Source: Anaerolineae bacterium (GTDB lineage: Bacteria; Chloroflexota; Anaerolineae; UBA4142; SHND01). From it: a DNA stretch of 64,000 nucleotides. Location: contig JAJTXZ010000002.1 in NCBI GenBank assembly GCA_021463195.1, positions 1-64,000 of the forward strand, read 5' to 3'. Position 1 is the stretch's first letter. Each line of letters starts with the position of its first letter. Positions 5,906 through 16,592 of this stretch are shown here, piece by piece. A program made the position numbers and the translations under genes. The notes below the pieces were generated by a model. The model did no database searches. It was not told the origin of the DNA and saw nothing but the letters and a program-made list of their open reading frames with translations.

Positions 5906-6220
5906 CTAGCCCATCTCGCCGCTGCCGCTATGACCGCTGCCAGCGATAGCGTCTTTGGCTGCTTTGGCAACCGTGAATTTCACTTTCTTTTTCGCGGGCA
6001 CCCAATATTTTTCGCCTTTGCGCGGACCGAACGGCATGGTCGCTTCGCGCGCGGGGGATTCTTTGAGCGAAAGCTTGCCGATGCCCGGAATCACAAACGT
6101 ATTCTTGGCTTCTTGATATGCGAGCTCCGCCAACGCTTCGAGAAAAGCATCACTCTGTTTTTTGGTGATGCCCACCTTGTCGGCGAGATGGCGCGAGATT
6201 TCACTTTTTGTCATTGACAT
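5906..6220 (-). CDS. HU-family DNA-binding protein
   Basis: Nucleoid-associated protein of 104 aa. The N-terminal helical part (MTKSEISRHLADKVGITKKQ, then SDAFLEALAELAYQE) and the GIGKLSLKESPAREATMPFG arm region match the HU/IHF fold. The beta-arm segment GEKYWVPAKKKVKFTVAKAAKDAI is the variant seen in bacterial HU-like proteins, where the tip differs from the E. coli RNPxTG. The tail is Gly/Ser-rich (GSGHSGSGEMG). The start is well supported by AAGGAGG 8 nt upstream. It has its own consensus promoter and terminator, so it is monocistronic. Confidence 0.9.
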   Translation of the reverse strand: MSMTKSEISRHLADKVGITKKQSDAFLEALAELAYQEAKNTFVIPGIGKLSLKESPAREATMPFGPRKGEKYWVPAKKKVKFTVAKAAKDAIAGSGHSGSGEMG

Positions 6221-6290: not shown

Positions 6291-6320
6291 ATTATAGGGC
6301 GAAAAACGCCTATATGTCAA
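6291..6320 (-). promoter_or_regulatory. Sigma70-type promoter of the HU-like gene
   Basis: Minus-strand TTGACA (6320-6315) and TATAAT (6296-6291), 18 bp apart, about 65 nt before the start codon. The spacer itself contains an inverted repeat (GGCGTTTTTCGCC). Confidence 0.8.
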
Positions 6321-6561: not shown

Positions 6562-6637
6562 CTGGTGATTACCTGAATTTCCAAACCCCAAGGGTTTTCG
6601 AAAACCCTTGGGGTTTGGAACTCGGGGTAATCACCAG
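6562..6637. repeat. Palindromic intergenic element, copy 1
   Basis: Ends are perfect 12-bp inverted repeats (CTGGTGATTACC ... GGTAATCACCAG). Inside is a near-perfect palindrome centred on GGGTTTTCGAAAACCC. Total ~76 bp, with no coding capacity. Related copies lie at 45694-45787 (same ends and core) and 63692-63756 (same core, different ends). The size and terminal repeats suggest a MITE- or REP-like mobile repeat. Confidence 0.8.
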
Positions 6638-6647
6638 AAAAAAACTA

Positions 6648-6676
6648 TTGACACGCGCCCGAAAGCATGTTATATT
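6648..6676 (+). promoter_or_regulatory. Strong sigma70-type promoter of the small transcription unit
   Basis: TTGACA (6648-6653) and TATATT (6671-6676) with an exact 17-bp spacer, starting 11 bp after palindromic element copy 1. Predicted transcription start is about 6683. Confidence 0.85.
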
Positions 6677-6691
6677 TTCCATCGTTCTGGC

Positions 6692-6707
6692 GACAAACTT
6701 GTTTGTC
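6692..6707. promoter_or_regulatory. Operator-like perfect palindrome in the 5' leader
   Basis: A 16-bp perfect palindrome (GACAAAC, two bases, GTTTGTC) placed ~10 bp after the predicted transcription start and just before the ribosome-binding site. It could be a repressor site or a short RNA hairpin. The half-site GACAAA recurs in the inverted repeat at 6929-6977. Confidence 0.5.
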
Positions 6708-6724
6708 AACCGGAGGCACACTGA

Positions 6725-6826
6725 ATGGTAATGAACACCCTTTTTCTCGACAGCATCAACTTTCGCCCCGCAACGGGCGGGGATGGCGCGTTACCTTGTA
6801 CCAGTGTGCCTGTTGACTATCGCTAG
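6725..6826 (+). CDS. Small ORF, 33 aa, possible leader peptide
   Basis: Starts MVMNTLFLDSINFRP and ends VPVDYR. GGAGG lies 8 nt before the ATG. The ORF sits inside a complete mini-transcription unit: consensus promoter at 6648, two terminators at 6851 and 6898. The peptide is not obviously a membrane segment or a run of one amino acid. It could be a leader peptide controlling read-through into the GNAT gene 168 nt downstream, an independent small protein, or an accidental frame in a small RNA. No family is recognised. Confidence 0.55.
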   Translation: MVMNTLFLDSINFRPATGGDGALPCTSVPVDYR

Positions 6827-6850
6827 ATTTTTCCGCGATTGATTTTTTTG

Positions 6851-6884
6851 ACCACGGGCGACACTGAACGCTCGTGGTTTTTTG
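6851..6884 (+). terminator. Rho-independent terminator 1 of the small transcription unit
   Basis: Stem ACCACGGGCG paired with CGCTCGTGGT (one mismatch), then TTTTTT. It starts 25 nt after the small ORF stop. Confidence 0.8.
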
Positions 6885-6897
6885 TTTGCCTGTTTCC

Positions 6898-6924
6898 ACC
6901 ACGAGCCGCGCTCGTGGTTTTTTT
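6898..6924 (+). terminator. Rho-independent terminator 2 of the small transcription unit
   Basis: Perfect stem ACCACGAG/CTCGTGGT with loop CCGCG, then TTTTTTT. The stem is almost the same sequence as terminator 1, so the two may be a duplication or alternative pairing partners. Confidence 0.85.
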
Positions 6925-6928
6925 GTTG

Positions 6929-6977
6929 GACAAATTTGTAATTTGTCCGCTGGGCAGAGACAAATCACAAATTTGTC
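6929..6977. repeat. Long inverted repeat upstream of the first GNAT gene
   Basis: 19-nt arms at 6929-6947 and 6959-6977, 18 of 19 positions complementary, with an 11-nt loop; each arm is itself nearly palindromic (GACAAATT...TTTGTC). A related palindrome followed by the same GTATC bases occurs at 42491-42509. It ends 16 nt before the GNAT start and could affect its translation. Confidence 0.7.
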
Positions 6978-6993: not shown

Positions 6994-7563
6994 ATGGTTC
7001 TCCAACTTTTTGAAGGCGAAAAAATTCGGCTTGCCGCGTTCGACGCGGACAAGGACGCTGAAATTTTTTCCAAATGGACGCATGACCCCGAATATCTGCG
7101 TCTCACCGAATACGAAGCCGCGCGTCCGCTTGCGCCGTTTCACATCAAGAAAAAATTTGAAGAGATGGAAAAAGACGCGCACGGCGATTTTTATTATTTC
7201 GTGATTCGAGCCAAAGAGGATGACCGCGCGCTCGGTTTCGCGCACATTCGTTGGGTGGAATGGAATCACGGCAACGCGCACTTTAATATGGCGCTTGGTT
7301 CGCCCGACGACCGTCGCAAAGGGTTGGGCAGTGAAGCATTGCAGATGATGCTGCGGTATGCGTTCGAAGAATTGAATTTGTATCGCATGACGGTTCACAC
7401 TTTCGAATACAACGACGGCGCGCGAAAATTTTTAGAGAAACGCGGCTTTCAACTCGAAGTGCGCCGCCGCGAAGCGATTTATCGCGATGGACGTTATTGG
7501 GACGCGCTGTCGTATGGAATTTTGGCGGAAGAGTGGAACAACCAAGTAGCAAGGAGCAAGTAG
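6994..7563 (+). CDS. GNAT family N-acetyltransferase (RimJ/RimL-like)
   Basis: A 189-aa acetyl-CoA-dependent acetyltransferase. The conserved core is visible: FNMALGSPDDRRKGLGSEAL (beta4 and the pyrophosphate-binding loop), then LQMMLRYAFEELNLYRMTVH and FEYNDGARKFLEKRGFQLE. I start at ATG 6994 (AAGGGAG upstream). The open frame extends to 6874, but that part crosses two terminators and a hairpin. The last codons (NNQVARSK) and the stop lie inside a repeat. First of three similar tandem genes. The substrate is unknown; the family covers ribosomal-protein N-termini, antibiotics and small amines. Confidence 0.85.
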   Translation: MVLQLFEGEKIRLAAFDADKDAEIFSKWTHDPEYLRLTEYEAARPLAPFHIKKKFEEMEKDAHGDFYYFVIRAKEDDRALGFAHIRWVEWNHGNAHFNMALGSPDDRRKGLGSEALQMMLRYAFEELNLYRMTVHTFEYNDGARKFLEKRGFQLEVRRREAIYRDGRYWDALSYGILAEEWNNQVARSK

Positions 7564-7612: not shown

Positions 7613-8173
7613 ATGAACAATCTTTTCACCGGCAAACTCACGCGACTCGTCGCCGAAGACGTTGAGAAAATGGGCGAGGTCATTGAACGATGGTCGCGTG
7701 ATTCCGAATTTTATCAACTGTTCGACAGTGACCCGACGCTGCCGCGCAATGCGAAACGCGCCACTGAACGAATGCGCGAACACGCGGAAAAAAATCGTCC
7801 GGGCAATTTTCCGTTTGATGTAGCGCGCTTGGAAGATGAACGCATCATCGGCGAAGGCGGTTTGTTTGACGCGTTTTCGTCGCATCGCAACGCGTGGCTC
7901 GCCATCGGCATCGGCGAACGCGAACTGTGGAGCAAGGGCTATGGCACCGACGCAGTGAACATCTTGCTGCGCTTTGCGTTTCAAGAATTGAATTTGCATC
8001 GCGTCAATCTCAACACTTTTGAATACAACGCGCGCGCGATTCGCGCGTACGAAAAAATTGGTTTTGTCCACGAAGGCAAAATGCGCGGCGCGCTGCGACG
8101 AGACGGCAGGCGTTGGGACATGATTTTTATGGGCATTCTGCGAACGGAATGGGAAGCGAAACAAAATGGATAA
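7613..8173 (+). CDS. GNAT family N-acetyltransferase (RimJ/RimL-like)
   Basis: 186 aa, clearly a paralogue of both neighbours. It shares the start xNxxFTGKLxRL, the acetyl-CoA loop region (AIGIGERELWSKGYGTDAVN), FAFQELNLHRVNLNTFEYNA and the C-terminal RRDGRRWDMIFMGILRTEWE. The C-terminal eight bases overlap the start of the next gene, so translation is coupled. No clear Shine-Dalgarno sequence precedes ATG 7613. Tandem duplication followed by divergence is the simple explanation. The target is unknown. Confidence 0.87.
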   Translation: MNNLFTGKLTRLVAEDVEKMGEVIERWSRDSEFYQLFDSDPTLPRNAKRATERMREHAEKNRPGNFPFDVARLEDERIIGEGGLFDAFSSHRNAWLAIGIGERELWSKGYGTDAVNILLRFAFQELNLHRVNLNTFEYNARAIRAYEKIGFVHEGKMRGALRRDGRRWDMIFMGILRTEWEAKQNG

Positions 8174-8723
8174 TCAAATCTTTACAGGCAAGCTCGTTCG
8201 ACTCGCCGCGCAAGACCCGGAAAAGGACGCAACGACGATTGCGGGATGGGACAAGGATACAGAATACACGCGTCTTTTGGAAGTAGATCCGGTGACACCC
8301 CCGCAGCTAAAGAACAAGCGCGAAAGATTGGAGCGCATGCCGAATCCGCATTTTTATCCCTTTGGCGTCCGCACGCTTACCGACGACATATTGATTGGCT
8401 TTTGTGTCTTGATGCGTGTCAATCATGTTCATGGTGACGCATTTGTGGGAATTGGTATGGGCGATCCCGCGTATCGCGGGAAAGGATACGGCACGGACGC
8501 CATGAATCTCATTTTGAGATTCGCGTTTCAAGAATTGAATTTGCATCGCGTTTCGCTCGATGCTGTCGCCACCAACGCGCGCGCAGTCCGTTCCTATGAA
8601 AAATGTGGTTTTGTCTTGGAAGGTCAAACGCGCGGTACGGAATTTCGCAGCGGCATTCGCGACAATATCGTCTCGATGGGGATTACGCGGCGAGAATGGG
8701 AAGGGATGAAGGTTGAAGGATGA
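8166..8723 (+). CDS. GNAT family N-acetyltransferase (RimJ/RimL-like)
   Basis: 185 aa, overlapping the previous gene by 8 bp. Core motifs are VGIGMGDPAYRGKGYGTDAM (acetyl-CoA pyrophosphate loop RGKGYG), LRFAFQELNLHRVSLDAVAT and RSYEKCGFVLEGQTRG. The near-identical FAFQELNLHRV stretch with the preceding gene shows recent common ancestry. The end (GMKVEG) is a short tail right before the stop. No substrate can be inferred beyond the family. Confidence 0.87.
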   Translation: MDNQIFTGKLVRLAAQDPEKDATTIAGWDKDTEYTRLLEVDPVTPPQLKNKRERLERMPNPHFYPFGVRTLTDDILIGFCVLMRVNHVHGDAFVGIGMGDPAYRGKGYGTDAMNLILRFAFQELNLHRVSLDAVATNARAVRSYEKCGFVLEGQTRGTEFRSGIRDNIVSMGITRREWEGMKVEG

Positions 8724-8767
8724 AACACGCGTAGGAGGCGTTCGCAAGTGAACTCCACTTGATAACG

Positions 8768-8838
8768 CCGAGAAGCGAGAAACGAGAAACGTCAAACGTC
8801 AAACGTCAGTCTCCAATCTCCAATCTCCAATCTCCAAT
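8768..8838. repeat. Composite short tandem repeat: GAGAAAC, ACGTCAA and CTCCAAT units
   Basis: Three adjacent tandem arrays: (GAGAA)(AC)G units from ~8768, three copies of AAACGTC, then four perfect copies of the heptamer CTCCAAT (8811-8838). It fills the gap before the GNAT gene at 8861. CTCCAAT arrays recur at five other places in the window. Confidence 0.85.
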
Positions 8839-8860
8839 CTCAACAAAACGAGGAAAACCA

Positions 8861-9883
8861 ATGTTAGCAACTCTTGAATCAACCACAACCTTTGCGCCCG
8901 AACTGGGTATCGAAGGATTAACCTTAAGGAATTGGCGCGATGAATCCGATTACGCCAAAATGCTGCCAATCTTGTACGCCGACCGACTCGCGCAAGGTTT
9001 GGAGGAAAGCGTTACGCTGCCCGATTACAAAACATCGTTCGAAACGATGCCGGGCATGGATGTTCGCACAGGCGTTTTCTTGCTCGAACGCTATGGCGAG
9101 CCGATTGCGTACAAGACGGTACGCGCCGTCCCCGAAGCGGATGGTTCTTTTCGTTACGCGCATTATGGCTCTGTGTTGCCTGAATGGAAAGGGCGCGGCA
9201 TCGGGCGCGCAATGATTCGTCACAGCGAAAATGTTTTGCGCGCATTGGCGAAAACGCATCCCGCCGACGCGCCGAAATTTTTTCAAACCTTTTTGCAAAG
9301 CACGCAAACGCAACTCATCCAATTGCTCGAGCAGGAAGGATACGCGCCGACGCGCTATTTTTTTGAAATGCTGCGCGAAATGTTGGACGATATTCCTGAA
9401 CATGATTTGCCGCACGGAATCGAGGCGCGTCCTGTTGAACCACAACACTATCGCAAAATTTGGGATGCGATGCTCGAAGCGTTCAAGGAACATTGGGGCG
9501 AAGAGGAGCACACCGACGCGGATTTTGAAAACTGGCTCAAGCGTTCGCATTTTGACCCGACGTTGTGGCATATCGCGTGGGATGGTGACCGCGTCGTTGC
9601 CGTCGTCATCAATCAGATTGATGAGAATGATAACGCACATTACAACCGTCAACGCGGGTTCACCGAAGACATTGCAACCTTAAAGGAATATCGCGGGCGC
9701 GGCATCGCGCAGGCATTGATCGCGCGCGGCTTGCGCCAATTCCGCCAACGCGGCATGAACGCGGCGGGGCTTGACGTGGACGGCGAAAACGCGACGGGCG
9801 CGCTGCGCTTGTACGAAAAACTGGGCTATCACCCAATTCGCACCGTGATGGCGTATCGGAAAGGATTAGAGACTGGAGACTAG
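8861..9883 (+). CDS. Tandem-domain GNAT acetyltransferase
   Basis: 340 aa with two GNAT domains. The N-terminal domain (residues ~15-165) has YGSVLPEWKGRGIGRAMIRH. The C-terminal one (~185-338) has FTEDIATLKEYRGRGIAQAL, then LDVDGENATGALRLYEKLGY. Both keep the R/Q-x-x-G-x-G/A acetyl-CoA loop. I start at ATG 8861 (GAGGAA 6 nt upstream); the open frame upstream encodes the CTCCAAT repeats (as SNLQSPISN) and is not credible. Double-GNAT proteins of this layout include mycothiol synthase-like enzymes, but residues for that activity cannot be judged here. The C-terminus (LETGD) is encoded by repeat sequence. Confidence 0.85.
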   Translation: MLATLESTTTFAPELGIEGLTLRNWRDESDYAKMLPILYADRLAQGLEESVTLPDYKTSFETMPGMDVRTGVFLLERYGEPIAYKTVRAVPEADGSFRYAHYGSVLPEWKGRGIGRAMIRHSENVLRALAKTHPADAPKFFQTFLQSTQTQLIQLLEQEGYAPTRYFFEMLREMLDDIPEHDLPHGIEARPVEPQHYRKIWDAMLEAFKEHWGEEEHTDADFENWLKRSHFDPTLWHIAWDGDRVVAVVINQIDENDNAHYNRQRGFTEDIATLKEYRGRGIAQALIARGLRQFRQRGMNAAGLDVDGENATGALRLYEKLGYHPIRTVMAYRKGLETGD

Positions 9884-9970: not shown

Positions 9971-10984
9971 ATGCCTATTTCAGTTGCAGCGCCAACGTTA
10001 AAGAAAAAACAAGAATATACCGCGCGCGAATTGGAGCGTCGCGATTTACCGGACATTTTGGAATTGCTCCACATCGTCAATCGAGCGGACGACAACGATT
10101 ATTATCAAGCGCTCGATGATTTGGAACGCGAGTATGCGGATCCGCGCAGCAATCCCAATACCGACGCGCGCATTTTCCGAAACGCGTTGGGGAAACTCGT
10201 CGCGTTCGCGCGTGTCTTTGTCGAACCCAAACCGACCAAAGAGAACATCGCATATTTGTCTTGTGAAATCGCGCCCGAAGCGCGTGAGCAAGGATTGGAA
10301 GAGGAATGTATCGAATGGATGCAAGAACGCGCGGCGGAATGTCTCGCCGAAACGGCGCGGGTGGATGACGTGGACGCGTTGCCGCGCGCCATGCGCGTTG
10401 ATTTCCCCGAGACTTCGCCGTTCCGCCCGTTTTATCAAGCGCGCGGTTTTGAATCTGCGCGCGCGTCGTACAGCATGGAGCGCGCTTTGCATGAACCCAT
10501 TCCCGAAAATTCATTGCCTCCCGACTTGGTTCTCGTTGAATACACAAAAGATTTGGACGATGCGGTTCGGCTCGCGTGCAACGAAGCGTTTCGTGACCAT
10601 TGGGGGCATCAAGACGCTTTGCCGGAAACATGGGAAACGGGTGTCTCGGAAGTTTCTGATTTGCGCCGCGACCTTTCTCTCGTCGTGATGGATGGAAATG
10701 AAATCGCGGCGTTTTGCGTTAATTTTGAAAATACGGCGGATAATGAAATGCGCGGCACGCGACGCGGTTGGATTGGCGTTTTGGGCACGCGGCGCCCTTG
10801 GCGCAAACGCGGCATCGCGTCCGCGCTGCTCGCGGAATCTATGCGGCGTTTTCACGCCATCGGTTTCGATTCAGTTGCGCTTGGAGTGGATACCGAAAAT
10901 CGTTCCGGCGCGCTCAGGCTGTACGAGAATTTGGGTTTCAAACCGTACATGACGCGGGTGATTTTGGAAAAAAGCGTGCGATAG
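9971..10984 (+). CDS. Tandem-domain GNAT acetyltransferase
   Basis: 337 aa, same double-GNAT layout as the gene before it. The N-terminal domain is degenerate: LSCEIAPEAREQGLEEECIE stands where the acetyl-CoA loop should be, and it lacks the R-x-x-G-x-G pattern. The C-terminal domain is intact (GVLGTRRPWRKRGIASALLA, then LGVDTENRSGALRLYENLGF). The N-terminal half is therefore probably structural. It starts at ATG 9971 with no clear Shine-Dalgarno sequence, right after repeat DNA. The two double-GNAT genes and the one at 16778 are related to each other. Confidence 0.85.
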   Translation: MPISVAAPTLKKKQEYTARELERRDLPDILELLHIVNRADDNDYYQALDDLEREYADPRSNPNTDARIFRNALGKLVAFARVFVEPKPTKENIAYLSCEIAPEAREQGLEEECIEWMQERAAECLAETARVDDVDALPRAMRVDFPETSPFRPFYQARGFESARASYSMERALHEPIPENSLPPDLVLVEYTKDLDDAVRLACNEAFRDHWGHQDALPETWETGVSEVSDLRRDLSLVVMDGNEIAAFCVNFENTADNEMRGTRRGWIGVLGTRRPWRKRGIASALLAESMRRFHAIGFDSVALGVDTENRSGALRLYENLGFKPYMTRVILEKSVR

Positions 10985-11053: not shown

Positions 11054-12745
11054 TTGTTACACCTCTCTCATCTCTCCAAATCCTACGGCGTTACAACGAT
11101 TCTCGACGATGTTTCATTCGTTTTGAATCGCGGCGAACGCGCGGGACTCGTTGGCGTGAACGGCGCGGGGAAAACGACGCTGCTGCGAATCATCGCGGGC
11201 ATCGAACAATCCGACGCGGGCTTTGCGCGCCTCGACGCGCACGCAACATTCGGCTATTTGCCGCAGGGCTTGAATCTGGATGAAGCGCTCACGCTCGAAC
11301 AGTTGATTCGGCAGGGCGTCAGCGCGTGGGATGAGGCGCAAAATAAAATGGACGCGCTCGCGGAAAAATTGGAACGCGACGCGGCGAATGAAAATTTGCT
11401 CGCGGAATATGGCGACGCGTGCGCGCGGTTTGAAGAATTGGGCGGGTACGATGTCGAGGCGCGCCTCGAAAATGTTTTGCGCGGCTTGAGCTTGGAAAAT
11501 GTGCCGCGCGATTTGGCGATTGCGAAATTGAGCGGGGGACAACGCACGCGCGCGGGGCTCGCGCGATTGTTGATTTCCGAACCGAGCGTGTTGTTGCTCG
11601 ATGAGCCGACGAATCATCTCGACGTGGACGCGTTGGAATGGCTCGAACAGTTTATCCAAAATTATGCGGGCGCGGCGTTGATTGTTTCGCATGACCGCGT
11701 ATTTCTCGACAACACCGTTTCGCAGATTCTCGAACTCGACGACATGACGCATCGCGTCACAATGTATCACGGCGATTATTCGGCTTACGAAATGGCGAAA
11801 GCGCGCGAACTCGAACAGCAGTGGGGAATGTACAAAGACCAACAAATCGAACTCGCGCGTTTGTCCAATGCGGCGCGGCATTTGCGCGGCATCGCCAAAT
11901 TCCGCAAAGGCGGCAAAGCGGACACGAACGACAAATTCGCCAAAGCATTTTTTGCGAATCGCGGCAAAGCGACGGTGGCGCGCGCGAAAAGCATCGAAAA
12001 ACGAATCGAACATTTACAAACCGACGAAAAAATTTTCAAGCCCAAAGCGGGTTACGCGCTCAAATTGGATTTTGGCGAAATGCCGCGTTCGGGGCAGATG
12101 GTTTTGGGTTTGGAAGCGATAGGTTTCAAGTATCAGGTAGCAGGTATCACGTCACACGTCGCCCCTCTCCAGTCCCCAATCTCCTCTCTCCACTCTTTTT
12201 TGTTTCGGAATTTGAACGCCACCCTCCGTCACGGCGAACGCGTCGCGCTCATCGGCGCGAATGGGACGGGGAAATCTACGTTGTTGAAAATCATCGTGGG
12301 CGAATTGCAGCCGACAGAAGGAAATGTGCGATTGGGCGCGAATGTGCGCATCGGTTACATGTCACAAGAACAAGAAACGTTCGACGCGTCGCAAACGCCG
12401 CTCGCGCTGATTCGTTCGCTAATGCCCGTTGATGAAACGGACGCGCGTCATTTTTTGCATTACTTTATGTTTGAGCAGGACGAGGTTTTCACGCCCATCG
12501 GCAAATTGAGTTACGGCGAGCGCGCGCGTTTGATTTTGGCAAAACTCGTCGCGGAAAAAGCGAACGTTTTGATTTTGGATGAACCGATAAATCATTTGGA
12601 TATTCCGTCGCGCGAAAATTTTCAAACCGCGCTCGACGCGTTTCCCGGCACAATTCTCGTCGCCGTGCATGACCGCGCGTTTATTCAGAAATTTGCGACG
12701 CGCGTATGGGAGATGAAAGAGGGGAGACTGGAGATTCGAGATTAG
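11054..12745 (+). CDS. ABC-F family ATP-binding protein with an in-frame repeat-derived insert
   Basis: Cytosolic ABC-F protein of 563 aa with two ATPase domains and no membrane part. The family acts on the ribosome as translation factors or antibiotic-protection proteins. Domain 1: Walker A GVNGAGKTT (~residue 35), LSGGQRTRAGLARLL, Walker B VLLLDEPTNHLD. Domain 2: Walker A GANGTGKST, LSYGERARLILAKLV, LILDEPINHLD. The charged inter-domain linker is at ~240-345. The only sensible start is TTG 11054. Between the first strand of domain 2 and the next (residues ~360-384) about 20 residues are encoded by intergenic-type repeats. The C-terminus (RLEIRD) also comes from repeat sequence. Resistance versus housekeeping role cannot be told apart by sequence alone. 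Confidence 0.9.
   Translation: MLHLSHLSKSYGVTTILDDVSFVLNRGERAGLVGVNGAGKTTLLRIIAGIEQSDAGFARLDAHATFGYLPQGLNLDEALTLEQLIRQGVSAWDEAQNKMDALAEKLERDAANENLLAEYGDACARFEELGGYDVEARLENVLRGLSLENVPRDLAIAKLSGGQRTRAGLARLLISEPSVLLLDEPTNHLDVDALEWLEQFIQNYAGAALIVSHDRVFLDNTVSQILELDDMTHRVTMYHGDYSAYEMAKARELEQQWGMYKDQQIELARLSNAARHLRGIAKFRKGGKADTNDKFAKAFFANRGKATVARAKSIEKRIEHLQTDEKIFKPKAGYALKLDFGEMPRSGQMVLGLEAIGFKYQVAGITSHVAPLQSPISSLHSFLFRNLNATLRHGERVALIGANGTGKSTLLKIIVGELQPTEGNVRLGANVRIGYMSQEQETFDASQTPLALIRSLMPVDETDARHFLHYFMFEQDEVFTPIGKLSYGERARLILAKLVAEKANVLILDEPINHLDIPSRENFQTALDAFPGTILVAVHDRAFIQKFATRVWEMKEGRLEIRD
12131..12206 (+). repeat. Intergenic-type composite repeat inside the ABC-F coding region
   Basis: AGGTAGCAGGTATCAC, then ACGTCACACGTC, then a degraded CTCCAGTCCCCAATCTCC array: the same building blocks, and in part the same order, as the intergenic array at 8768-8838. 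It keeps the reading frame and encodes YQVAGITSHVAPLQSPISS in the second ATPase domain. Confidence 0.75.
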
Positions 12746-12843: not shown

Positions 12844-14190
12844 ATGGACATTCTAAAAACTTTACCCAATGGTCTTGTGATTCGTCGCGCGGCAATCGCC
12901 GACACTGACGCTCTGGTGGATTTGCAGATTCACGCGTTCGCAAATCCCGACACGGGCGAACTCGATCATTATCTCGGCGGCTGGACGCGCGATTTGATGA
13001 GCTGCAAACATCCGACCTTTCGCCCGGAAGATTTTCTCGTCGTTCAAGATACCAAAATGGGCGCGCTCGTTTCGTGTACCTGTTTGATTTCGCAAGTCTG
13101 GACTATGGATGGGATTTCGATTCGCGTAGGACGCCCGGAAATTGTGGGAACGTTAGCGGATTATCGGCGACGCGGTTTGATTCGCGAACAATTTAAAATC
13201 TTGCATGAATGGTCGCACGCGCGCGGCGAAATGGCGCAAGCGATTACGGGGATTCCGCATTACTATCGTCAATTCGGTTACGAGTTTGCGCTTGAACTCG
13301 TCGCGCCGCGTCAAACCTTTGTGCCGCAGCAAATTCCTGAATTGAAAGAGGGCGAACAGGAAAAATTCCGATTGCGCCGCGCGGAGCAAAATGATTTGTC
13401 CTTTATCGCGGAACTGTACAAACAATCGTGCGCGCGTTCATACGTTTCTTGTACGCGCGATGAAACGATGTTCGAGTACGAAAATTTTCTCGAAAACAAT
13501 TCGCTCAACGGTAACGCGTCGTGGTGGGATGTAATTGAGACGCAGGATGGTATGCGCGCGGGAATTGTGATGCACCGCCGCTATGTGTATCAAGGGCGCC
13601 ATTCGTCGCATTGTTTCGAGATTCTGCCACAATTCGCGTGGACTGAGGTGACGCCGTGTGTGTTGCGCGCGTTGACGCAACAAGCGAACGCGATGGAAAT
13701 AGAAGACAAGCAGCCGCTCGCAAAACTCGGTTGGTTCTTGCAATCTAATCATCCGTTTTATGAGATGTTTCCCGAACGCATTGCGACATGGTTTGGCGGC
13801 TATGCGTGGTATATCCGCGTTCCTGACATTCCCGCGTTTCTCCAACACATCGCGCCCATTTTAGAAAAACGTCTCGCGACATCAAATTTTCGCGGACTGA
13901 CCGAAGCGCTGCGTTTGAATTTTTATCGCGACGGCGTCGAGATGATTCTTGAAAATGGAAAAATGAAAGCCGCGCAAGCATGGCGCGCGACAGCGAATGA
14001 TTTTGGACAAAGCGGTTTTGGTAATGCCGCGTTTCCCGAATTAACGTTTCTCAAAATCTTGTTCGGCTATTGTTCACGTGCCGAACTGCAAGCGATGTTT
14101 CCCGATTGCCTCACGGATGGGGAGAAAACGTCCGCGCTGCTTGACGTTCTCTTTCCAAAGCAAATCTCGCACATCATGCCGATTCATTAA
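12844..14190 (+). CDS. Eis-like GNAT acetyltransferase
   Basis: 448 aa. The N-terminal GNAT domain (~10-160) has VGRPEIVGTLADYRRRGLIR (acetyl-CoA loop RRRGLI) and then AITGIPHYYRQFGYEFAL, close to the Eis-family pattern of a self-contained 'IYxRFGYG' strand. The rest is a larger C-terminal region with a second degenerate GNAT-like fold and an SCP2-like end, as in Eis. Eis enzymes acetylate aminoglycosides and protein lysines; sharing the fold does not prove that substrate here. It follows the ABC-F gene across a repeat-filled gap, with no clear Shine-Dalgarno sequence. Confidence 0.75.
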   Translation: MDILKTLPNGLVIRRAAIADTDALVDLQIHAFANPDTGELDHYLGGWTRDLMSCKHPTFRPEDFLVVQDTKMGALVSCTCLISQVWTMDGISIRVGRPEIVGTLADYRRRGLIREQFKILHEWSHARGEMAQAITGIPHYYRQFGYEFALELVAPRQTFVPQQIPELKEGEQEKFRLRRAEQNDLSFIAELYKQSCARSYVSCTRDETMFEYENFLENNSLNGNASWWDVIETQDGMRAGIVMHRRYVYQGRHSSHCFEILPQFAWTEVTPCVLRALTQQANAMEIEDKQPLAKLGWFLQSNHPFYEMFPERIATWFGGYAWYIRVPDIPAFLQHIAPILEKRLATSNFRGLTEALRLNFYRDGVEMILENGKMKAAQAWRATANDFGQSGFGNAAFPELTFLKILFGYCSRAELQAMFPDCLTDGEKTSALLDVLFPKQISHIMPIH

Positions 14191-14255: not shown

Positions 14256-14372
14256 ATGCACAAACAATTTCAATTCTCCCCAAACACAAATCATTTATTC
14301 GATTCAAGGAGAATCCATGTCTCTCGAACGAAACACCTCCGTTACAGAGGTTACACAAGGCGTTGTATATAA
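14256..14372 (+). CDS. Small upstream ORF (38 aa) overlapping the rsgA start
   Basis: ATG 14256 has the best Shine-Dalgarno sequence in the region (AAGGAGGT, 5 nt spacing). The frame encodes a basic peptide beginning MHKQFQFSPNTNHLF. It ends 56 nt inside rsgA in another frame. A strong ribosome site here means ribosomes translating it would cross the rsgA start, so a regulatory upstream ORF is plausible. It may equally be a remnant of a lost gene. Confidence 0.4.
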   Translation: MHKQFQFSPNTNHLFDSRRIHVSRTKHLRYRGYTRRCI

Positions 14373-15312
14373 AAAATCGCAAGGACATTACGGCGTGCGC
14401 GTCAATGGGCATTTGCTCGACTGCGAAATTTCGTCGCGCTTACGCAAGCATCTCGAATACCCAATCGCCGCGCCTACCTCGCGCCGTCACCGCGTTCTCG
14501 CCGTACACGAAATCCGCGTCGTTGACCCGATAGCGATTGGCGATGTCGTGCAGTTTTTACGCGCGGGCGATGACGCGGGCATCATCACAAATGTCTTGCC
14601 GCGTCGCAATCAAATCGCGCGCCAAGACCCGGGTCCGCGCCCGACAGAACAAATCATCGCCGCAAACATTGATTATCTCGTGCATGTGATTGCGTGCGCG
14701 CAGCCCGCGCCGCGTTGGGAATTGCTTGACCGCTATCTCGCGTCGGCAGAGAAAGCGGAAATTCCTTCACTCATCATTTTTACGAAAAGCGATTTGCTGC
14801 AGGATGAGGCGCTCGAACGCGAAATGGAAAATTATCGCGCCATCGGTTATCCCGTGATATTCACGAGCGCGACGACAGGGCAGGGGATTGCGGAATTGCG
14901 CGACGCGCTGCGCGACAAAACATGTGTGTTCGTTGGCATGTCAGGCGTGGGCAAATCAACATTGTTGAACGCGTTACAGCCCGAACTCGCGCTGCGCGTA
15001 AAGGAAATCAGCCGCGCGTCGGGCAAGGGCAAACACACGACGACGCATCTCGAAATGTTTGATTTTGATTTCGGCGGGCGTGTGATTGATACGCCGGGGT
15101 TGAAATATCTGACGCTGTGGGAAATGAACGGCGCGCAAATCGCGGAATACTTTGTCGAGATGCAGCCGTATCTCGGCAAATGCAAATTCGGCGCGGACTG
15201 TTCGCATGACCACGAACCCGATTGCGCGATAAAACGCGCGGTGAACGCGGGCGCGATTTCGGAACGACGTTATGCGAGTTATTTGCGGATAAAGGATAAA
15301 ACGTCCGTGTAA
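14317..15312 (+). CDS. rsgA: Ribosome small subunit-dependent GTPase A
   Basis: Circularly permuted GTPase (331 aa) that acts in late 30S ribosome maturation. Order of parts: OB-fold (~1-100, ending GDVVQFLRAGDD), then G4 TKSDLL (~158), then G1 GMSGVGKSTLL (~208), then G3 DTPGLKYL, then the zinc knuckle CKFGADCSHDHEPDC. This permuted motif order is diagnostic. It starts at ATG 14317 with CAAGGAG upstream. The stop codon is part of a 21-bp hairpin shared with the following MFS gene. It is the only clear housekeeping gene inside the acetyltransferase island. Confidence 0.95.
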   Translation: MSLERNTSVTEVTQGVVYKKSQGHYGVRVNGHLLDCEISSRLRKHLEYPIAAPTSRRHRVLAVHEIRVVDPIAIGDVVQFLRAGDDAGIITNVLPRRNQIARQDPGPRPTEQIIAANIDYLVHVIACAQPAPRWELLDRYLASAEKAEIPSLIIFTKSDLLQDEALEREMENYRAIGYPVIFTSATTGQGIAELRDALRDKTCVFVGMSGVGKSTLLNALQPELALRVKEISRASGKGKHTTTHLEMFDFDFGGRVIDTPGLKYLTLWEMNGAQIAEYFVEMQPYLGKCKFGADCSHDHEPDCAIKRAVNAGAISERRYASYLRIKDKTSV

Positions 15313-15359: not shown

Positions 15360-16592
15360 ATGAAGCGCCTTGACGGCTATACCGTTTTTCTGTTTCAAGA
15401 ATTTACGGGTTCGCTTTTGTTCGCCGTAATTTTCACTGCCAACATTCTGTACCAAGTGCAGACGGTTGGCTTGAATCCGTTTCAACTCGTGCTGGTCGGC
15501 ACGGTGTTAGAGTTGACCGCGTTCATTGCCGAAGTGCCGACGGGCATTATCGCGGATGTGTACAGTCGGCGGCTCTCGATCATCATCGGTTACGTGGTGG
15601 TGGGCATCGGGCTGATGCTCGAAGGTTCGATTCCGCAATTTTGGGCGGTGCTGCTCGCGCAAGTGATTTGGGGCATCGGCATCACGTTTCAAAGCGGCGC
15701 GCTCGAAGCATGGGTCGCAGATGAAGTGGGGCAAGAAAACGCGGGCAAAGCATTTTTGCGCGGCGCGCAGTTCGGCAAAGCGGGCGCGCTCGTCGGAATT
15801 GGCGTCAGTGTGTTGTTGGGCAGTATCGCGTTGAACGTGCCGATTGTGGTCGGCGCCGCGCTGCTGATTGTCTTGGGCATTGTGCTGGCTTTCATCATGC
15901 CCGAAACAGGATTCAAGCCGACGCCGCGCGAAGATCGCAATACGTTTCAACACATGGGACACACTTTCCGCGCAGGCACCGCGCTCGTGCGAAAAAATCG
16001 AATTCTCATTTCGCTGCTGCTCGCCGCCGCGTTCTTTGGCGCGTTCAGCGAAGGGTTTGACCGCTTGTGGCTGCCGCATTTGGTTCAATTTACACTGCCG
16101 TATTTTGAACCGATTGTGTGGGTGGGCATCATTGATGCAGTCTCGCTCGGGTTGGGAATTGTTGCGACGGAATTTGTGACGCGCCGTGTGGATACGAACA
16201 ATCAATTCATCGTCGCGCGCGCGTTGCAAATTGTCATCGCGCTGATTATGGCGTTGATGTTCGTGTACGGACTCGCGTGGGAGTTTAGCGTTGCGCTCAT
16301 TGCGCTGCTTGCGCTCAACCCGCTGCGCGGGATGAATTATCCGCTCGCGACGGCGTGGATGAATCTGCATGTCGAATCGTCGGTGCGCGCGACAGTGTTT
16401 TCGATTCGCAATCAAGCCGACGCGTTCGGACAAATGCTTGGCGGTCCGATACTTGGCGCGATTGCGACGCTGGTTTCGCTGCGCGCGGAAATGGTTGTCG
16501 CCGCGTTGTTTCTGATTCCCACGTTGTACTTGTATTCGCGCAAGTTTGATGCGAATGAAATGTCGAATGTACAAGCAGAACTGAATATGTAA
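15360..16592 (+). CDS. MFS transporter (drug-efflux-like)
   Basis: 410 aa with about 12 hydrophobic helices. The segment between helices 2 and 3 reads GIIADVYSRRLSIIIG, the D-x-x-S/G-R-R signature of the major facilitator superfamily; EVPTG before it is typical of DHA3-like multidrug or macrolide exporters. A central loop rich in charged residues (ETGFKPTPREDRNTFQH) divides the two halves. There is no Shine-Dalgarno sequence; the ATG sits 8 nt after a perfect hairpin. The neighbourhood (ABC-F, Eis-like) makes antibiotic efflux an attractive idea, but the substrate is unproven. Confidence 0.85.
   Translation: MKRLDGYTVFLFQEFTGSLLFAVIFTANILYQVQTVGLNPFQLVLVGTVLELTAFIAEVPTGIIADVYSRRLSIIIGYVVVGIGLMLEGSIPQFWAVLLAQVIWGIGITFQSGALEAWVADEVGQENAGKAFLRGAQFGKAGALVGIGVSVLLGSIALNVPIVVGAALLIVLGIVLAFIMPETGFKPTPREDRNTFQHMGHTFRAGTALVRKNRILISLLLAAAFFGAFSEGFDRLWLPHLVQFTLPYFEPIVWVGIIDAVSLGLGIVATEFVTRRVDTNNQFIVARALQIVIALIMALMFVYGLAWEFSVALIALLALNPLRGMNYPLATAWMNLHVESSVRATVFSIRNQADAFGQMLGGPILGAIATLVSLRAEMVVAALFLIPTLYLYSRKFDANEMSNVQAELNM

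Follow-up and report, generated by a model that had tools for sequence, protein, structure and literature searches.

We identified a self-contained leader unit (6648-6924) that very probably controls a resistance-type operon by ribosome-mediated transcription attenuation. It lies in a 64,000-nucleotide stretch of contig JAJTXZ010000002.1 from an Anaerolineae bacterium, referred to here as the window. The attenuator reading, already offered as one possibility in an earlier note on this DNA, draws its support from the retention of the unit before orthologous GNAT acetyltransferase genes, from mutually exclusive and conserved RNA pairings, and from the resistance-type character of the genes downstream. 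What computation shows is the make-up of the unit, how it is conserved, which alternative pairings it allows, and which genes follow it. Early ribosome stalling, an antibiotic trigger, and readthrough in vivo are inferred by analogy with known systems, and there are no transcript, ribosome, or induction data for these organisms.

Architecture of the leader and its operon

The unit begins with a sigma-70-type promoter (TTGACA-17-TATATT, 6648-6676, on the forward strand like all parts of the unit and its operon) that matches 11 of 12 consensus positions and carries an extended -10 TG; TTGACA and the -10 element are kept in five congeners. Close to the 5' end of the transcript is a short inverted repeat, GACAAACTTGTTTGTC (6692-6707). 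The earlier note had called this palindrome operator-like. The repeat is present, but its arms co-vary between species (GACAA/TTGTC, GACGA/TCGTC, and GATGA/TCATC among congeners, compared by eye), and a short hairpin at the start of the transcript is a more probable reading than an operator.

The remainder of the unit can be divided into six segments. Segment 1, which we call B (6710-6724), consists of the Shine-Dalgarno GGAGG (6712-6716) and its 3' extension, GCACACTG, and pairs with segment 2, called D. It is followed by a leader ORF of 33 codons, MVMNTLFLDSINFRPATGGDGALPCTSVPVDYR-stop, running from an ATG at 6725 to a TAG (6725-6826). D, an anti-Shine-Dalgarno or antiterminator element around AGTGTGCCTG (6800-6818), lies within this ORF and has as its predicted partners either B or the 5' arm of the first intrinsic terminator, T1 (6850-6885, with a hairpin at 6850-6879 and a U tract). 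Segment 3 comprises the T1 5' arm and loop (6850-6868), in which ACGGGCGACACTG (6854-6866) is a mimic of segment 1 and a pairing partner of D, while segment 4 is the T1 3' arm, CGCTCGTGGTT (6869-6879), whose alternative partner is segment 5. The latter, ACCACGAGC (6898-6906), is the 5' arm of a second intrinsic terminator, T2, which is formed by segments 5 and 6 and also ends in a U tract (6898-6924, hairpin 6898-6918). T1 and T2 carry 20-nt repeats that are 90% identical. The near-consensus promoter, the good ribosome site with its 33-codon ORF, the two nearly identical terminators in a row, and the acetyltransferase as the next gene had all been recorded in the earlier note and are borne out here.

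The fold of the leader RNA beats 200 of 200 shuffles (z = -4.8). A pairing between the extreme 5' end and the stop-codon region, seen in the fold, was dropped; by eye, it breaks in at least one congener. Rfam covariance models applied to the window at the gathering score gave no match except a distant tRNA, and at a relaxed threshold the best scores were hairpin look-alikes (microRNA models) on a palindrome at 6562-6637, outside the leader unit. This near-perfect 76-base palindrome, just upstream of the promoter, is a dispersed hairpin repeat that recurs dozens of times in the genome (83 matches, both strands counted). A 19-base inverted repeat (6929-6977) lies between T2 and the ribosome site of the first GNAT gene; short palindromes that differ from it occupy this position in three congeners (G002, G003, and G005). 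On the minus strand, a perfect 12/12 sigma-70 promoter (6291-6320) precedes a divergent HU/IHF-like gene (5906-6220).

The first gene after the leader encodes GNAT acetyltransferase 1 (6994-7563; PF13302, E 5e-19). Four more GNAT genes follow (7613-8173, 8166-8723, 8759-9883, and 9971-10984), and then a ribosomal-protection-like ABC-F (11054-12745; NF000355, 429.7 bits, above the curated cut-off of 380), an Eis-like GNAT (12844-14190; PF13527), an RsgA GTPase (14317-15312; PF03193), and a TetA(P)-like MFS transporter (15360-16592; NF000043, 319 bits, under the model's exact cut-off of 750). In a search of the genome, this RsgA, sitting inside a resistance-type operon, was the only one over the Pfam cut-off.

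Conservation from genus to phylum

A DNA search of 99 relatives recovered one copy of the leader unit from each of the other five species in the genus and did not find it in the sister family. In all five congeners the same GNAT gene lies downstream (orthologs 74-86% identical), and the downstream gene order in one of them, G004, is largely as in the window. The upstream neighbor differs: it is the HU gene in the window but not in the other species, three of which have a beta-glucosidase there. The leader ORF has 33 codons in 6/6 species, with TAG, TAA, and TGA all used as stops. Its product ends in GGDxxxPCT[GS]APVDxR with small variations, and its N-terminal half is variable in sequence among the six species. 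In that half, codon-position counts revealed no excess of synonymous changes and no clear coding signal, so the case for translation rests on the ribosome site, the constant length, and the stop codons. The attenuator reading would have been refuted, according to the earlier note, by an unconserved ORF together with a GNAT gene that has its own promoter; the ORF is conserved, and a promoter scan from T2 to the GNAT start (6994) found no promoter-like site.

DNA and motif searches had suggested that the feature is restricted to the genus, a view overturned by reading upstream of the orthologs of GNAT acetyltransferase 1. When this protein was searched for in 150 genomes of the class, the regions ahead of its best orthologs showed the leader again in f29, a distant family, where the upstream ORFs (uORFs) end in RSAPxxR or similar. 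The leader, with the C-terminal motif of its peptide, is kept before orthologous GNAT genes in 5/5 congeners and in f29; the earlier note had proposed looking for conservation of the peptide and terminators upstream of GNAT genes. Homologous uORFs span about 18-35 codons across the class, and a second conserved-length group has 27 codons in 8/8 leaders, with varied stop codons. A pattern search for the Shine-Dalgarno region and its complement within the uORF matched 18 of 396 class genomes, against none with the reversed pattern as a control. Leader anatomy was present in 16 of the 18; the other two (L074 and L076) lack it and are false positives. A 20-base match in another genome (L015 in G017) lies in apparently unrelated coding sequence.

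We then built a covariance model from 22 leaders with 17 base pairs, and it matched 160 of the 396 class genomes (about 40%) and 103 of 222 genera, often with two or three matches per genome. The model is not finely calibrated, and weak lone matches are individually untrustworthy. Among 400 genomes from across the phylum, 42 matched, six of them outside the class and with weaker scores; on inspection, five of these six (L157-L160 and L162) look real by their uORF or downstream gene. The window's own genome has a second copy (L117; G000:C60:41406-41570, minus strand) before an ABC exporter gene pair. It has no evident Shine-Dalgarno site or B:D pairing, and its second hairpin does not pair with T1; some other family members are likewise without a clear Shine-Dalgarno site and B:D. 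Judged by their sequences, the leaders form one RNA family with no Rfam match. We found no description of such an element in Anaerolineae in the open-access literature, subscription literature being outside the search.

Elsewhere in the family, the leaders are followed by GNATs, ABC exporter gene pairs, ABC-2 ATPase/permease pairs, an Eis-like GNAT with an ABC-F, RsgA with an MFS transporter, and PA4780-type RIO1-like kinases. A scan with a family library covered part of these genes, and several classes were recognized from translated sequence. By these predicted assignments, the downstream genes are resistance-type throughout the family, with products that act on the ribosome, protect against ribosome inhibitors, or export drugs. 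In two loci (L123 and L124), RsgA and a TetA(P)-like MFS transporter lie directly behind the attenuator. In four others, from several families (L121, L138, L149, and L150), RIO1-like kinases do so (PA4780 type where scanned), which suggests a role for these kinases in translation stress.

The range of these genes bears on another possibility, that the unit has nothing to do with the GNAT operon and is instead an independent gene, for a small protein or a small RNA, that ends in two terminators. Such a gene would, like the unit, have its own promoter and terminators, and transcription presumably stops at T1 or T2 most of the time. Yet the leader stands directly upstream of resistance-type genes of different families, the N-terminal half of its peptide is unconserved in sequence, and the terminator arms co-evolve with each other. 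We regard this explanation, which the earlier note had kept alongside the attenuator, as scarcely credible.

Mutually exclusive pairings and their controls

Since B is copied in the T1 loop, D has two possible partners, B itself and the T1 5' arm with its loop. In the window, the predicted duplexes reach -19.9 kcal/mol for B:D, -18.9 kcal/mol for D with the T1 5' arm (D:T1-5'), and -15.9 kcal/mol for segment 4 with segment 5. The earlier note had looked for an anti-terminator between the two near-identical stems; the T1 3' arm does pair with the T2 5' arm (T1-3':T2-5'), but the primary antiterminator is predicted to be D with the T1 5' arm. B:D (-13 to -24 kcal/mol) and D:T1-5' (-15 to -26 kcal/mol) were each present in 22/22 leaders, and T1-3':T2-5' (-15 to -25 kcal/mol) in 17/17 leaders with two terminators. 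A further 39 leaders all had D:T1-5' at or below -13 kcal/mol, and the D:T1 pairing was seen in all 61 leaders measured.

All three helices, T1, B:D, and T1-3':T2-5', exceed slid and shuffled controls for paired cells and covariation. Changes on both sides occur at 7/9 pairs of the T1 stem and at 5/9 cross pairs of T1-3':T2-5', and compensatory changes are found at 5/8 pairs of B:D across the family. The B:D variants include GGCACAC/GTGTGCC, GGACGCAC/GTGCGTCC, GGCGCAG/CTGCGCC, and GGCGCAT/ATGCGCC. The B:D test used 18 rows picked to show different variants, and its counts reflect diversity, not frequency. With one leader per lineage group (n=20), cognate T1-3':T2-5' pairs gave -16.9 kcal/mol versus -12.3 kcal/mol for non-cognate pairs (permutation p near 0), and within f29 the comparison of cognate with swapped arms gave p=0.00025. 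Some T2 picks in the cognate test (L117, L118, L136, and L140) were misassigned by the script, which weakens rather than strengthens the test. D:T1-5' stood at -18.5 kcal/mol in leaders versus -10.5 kcal/mol in 94 background terminators (p=1e-11), none of which reached the energy of the window (-18.9 kcal/mol); the background terminators were drawn from individual loci and not from the whole genome. Against shuffled D, the D:T1 signal was modest in single leaders (mean z -1.5). These p-values overstate independence because the leaders are related by descent, and the compensatory changes are firmer evidence. Tandem duplication and gene conversion could alternatively keep the arms of T1 and T2 complementary, although the T2 loops are without the Shine-Dalgarno mimic, which argues against simple recent copying of the terminators.

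We also folded the leaders stepwise. With the Shine-Dalgarno region masked as if under a ribosome, D:T1-5' formed in 22/22 leaders, and with B masked and the T2 5' arm made, D:T1-5' and T1-3':T2-5' formed together in 16/17. When B was free, the full-length fold was mostly the OFF form. At equilibrium without B, the ON form usually remains less stable than T1 and T2 together, so the ON state would have to be kinetic, depending on the order of folding.

A proposed switch and its relation to known attenuators

The pairings suggest the following mechanism. One strong promoter would transcribe a leader with the 33-codon ORF and two intrinsic terminators, in which the Shine-Dalgarno region of the ORF (B) and the T1 5' arm and loop would compete for D. 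Without an initiating ribosome, B:D would form as an anti-antiterminator, and T1 and T2 would end transcription. During free translation to the stop codon, the ribosome would cover D, and T1 and T2 would again form. A ribosome stalled early in the ORF would instead cover B and leave D free to capture the T1 5' arm. This would release the T1 3' arm to capture the T2 5' arm in turn, both terminators would collapse domino-like, and the operon would be transcribed. The cause of the stall is inferred to be a ribosome-targeting antibiotic, by analogy with the Bacillus systems described below: inhibitors that hold ribosomes in the first codons would keep B covered and D free.

In E. coli attenuators of the trp type, segments pair 1:2, 2:3, or 3:4, with the ribosome as the sensor. 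The Anaerolineae leader shares this segment logic and, by inference, this sensor, which is what an attenuator of the trp/his type, sensing charged tRNA during amino acid starvation, would also predict. It has no run of control codons in any leader, however, and its downstream genes are resistance-type and not biosynthetic, so that we consider starvation sensing very improbable. Segments 5 and 6 further extend the switch beyond that of the trp type. To our knowledge, the resistance genes described so far as under ribosome-mediated attenuation are single loci, most of them in Firmicutes and Actinobacteria.

Logic of the anti-antiterminator, antiterminator, and terminator kind has been demonstrated for vmlR (PMC9226507) and proposed for bmrB (PMC4191407), both in Bacillus subtilis. 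As in the Anaerolineae leader, the vmlR uORF lies inside the anti-antiterminator, stalling allows an antiterminator to block an intrinsic terminator, and an ARE ABC-F gene lies downstream (PMC9226507). The vmlR leader differs in its three-codon uORF (MIN) and in having one terminator plus a hairpin that sequesters the Shine-Dalgarno site of the gene, whereas the Anaerolineae leader has two terminators with cross-pairing arms and a Shine-Dalgarno mimic in the T1 loop. We saw no Rfam or sequence relation between the two leaders. The bmrB-bmrCD system likewise has a leader ORF with a predicted anti-anti-terminator, anti-terminator, and terminator, and controls a heterodimeric ABC multidrug exporter, just as many Anaerolineae leaders precede ABC exporter gene pairs; its single terminator is inside the bmrB coding region, and it is one locus and not a multi-operon family (PMC4191407). 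In E. coli, the toiL-topAI uORF is reported to respond to ribosome-targeting antibiotics of several classes, with stalls at different positions, but it acts on translation and Rho-dependent termination at a single locus (PMC12121999).

What appears new here, relative to the open-access literature searched, is an attenuator family common to several kinds of operon, a terminator loop that mimics a Shine-Dalgarno region, and the predicted coupling of tandem terminators. On balance, and with less assurance than for the single unit, we favor the view that the family is a transcription-factor-free translation-stress regulon of Anaerolineae and other Chloroflexota, in which the terminator loop copies the Shine-Dalgarno region of the leader and the tandem terminators work as a six-segment domino. 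One RNA family recognizable by covariance stands before resistance-type operons of several kinds in much of a class with few cultured members. If the regulon view is true, family membership marks RsgA, RIO1-like kinases, and GNAT arrays as unrecognized responders to ribosome-targeting antibiotics. The leaders provide a handle for predicting Chloroflexota genes that respond to ribosome inhibitors, including RsgA, RIO1-like kinases, and many GNATs without an assigned substrate. The model also offers a testable explanation for keeping two near-identical terminators in tandem.

A further question is whether selection acts on the leader RNA or on its peptide. The conserved C-terminal peptide motif coincides with D. 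Most leaders read D as S-A-P, but the script assigned it to a different frame in 7 of 39 further leaders (for example, L132, L138, L139, L141, and L156; two of the seven, L148 and L154, rest on uncertain ORF calls). Because D is found in other frames, the primary constraint appears, from the sequences compared, to be on the RNA and not on the peptide. This differs from the msrD leader, in which a leader peptide also governs an ARE ABC-F gene when macrolides are present, with stalling that is reportedly peptide- and drug-specific (PMC10314930); in Anaerolineae, conservation is stronger in the RNA segment than in the peptide.

A comparable arrest could be imagined here, with the conserved C-terminus (..PCT[GS]APVDxR-stop or ..RSAPxxR-stop) responding to a specific ligand or drug and stalling the ribosome at or near the stop codon to control termination. 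The motif is kept within the genus and in f29, and the position of the stop codon is conserved, as such an arrest peptide would lead one to expect. However, the motif overlies an element that must pair with RNA and that is out of frame in the leaders just listed, and a ribosome parked at the stop codon would cover D, favoring termination in this geometry. We consider nascent-peptide arrest unlikely, and the constraint on the RNA speaks for a switch that senses early stalling of ribosomes in general rather than one built on a particular arrest peptide; a mixed RNA and peptide mechanism is not excluded. The early stalling that we infer shows no obvious tie to a particular codon, given how much the first half of the ORF varies. 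Many leader peptides do start with M-x-M, often M-x-M-N (MVMN, MIMN, MFMN, or MMMN), as in the window, L012, L036, L063, L066-L069, and L071-L073, and this recurring start might mark a stall site or a second start codon.
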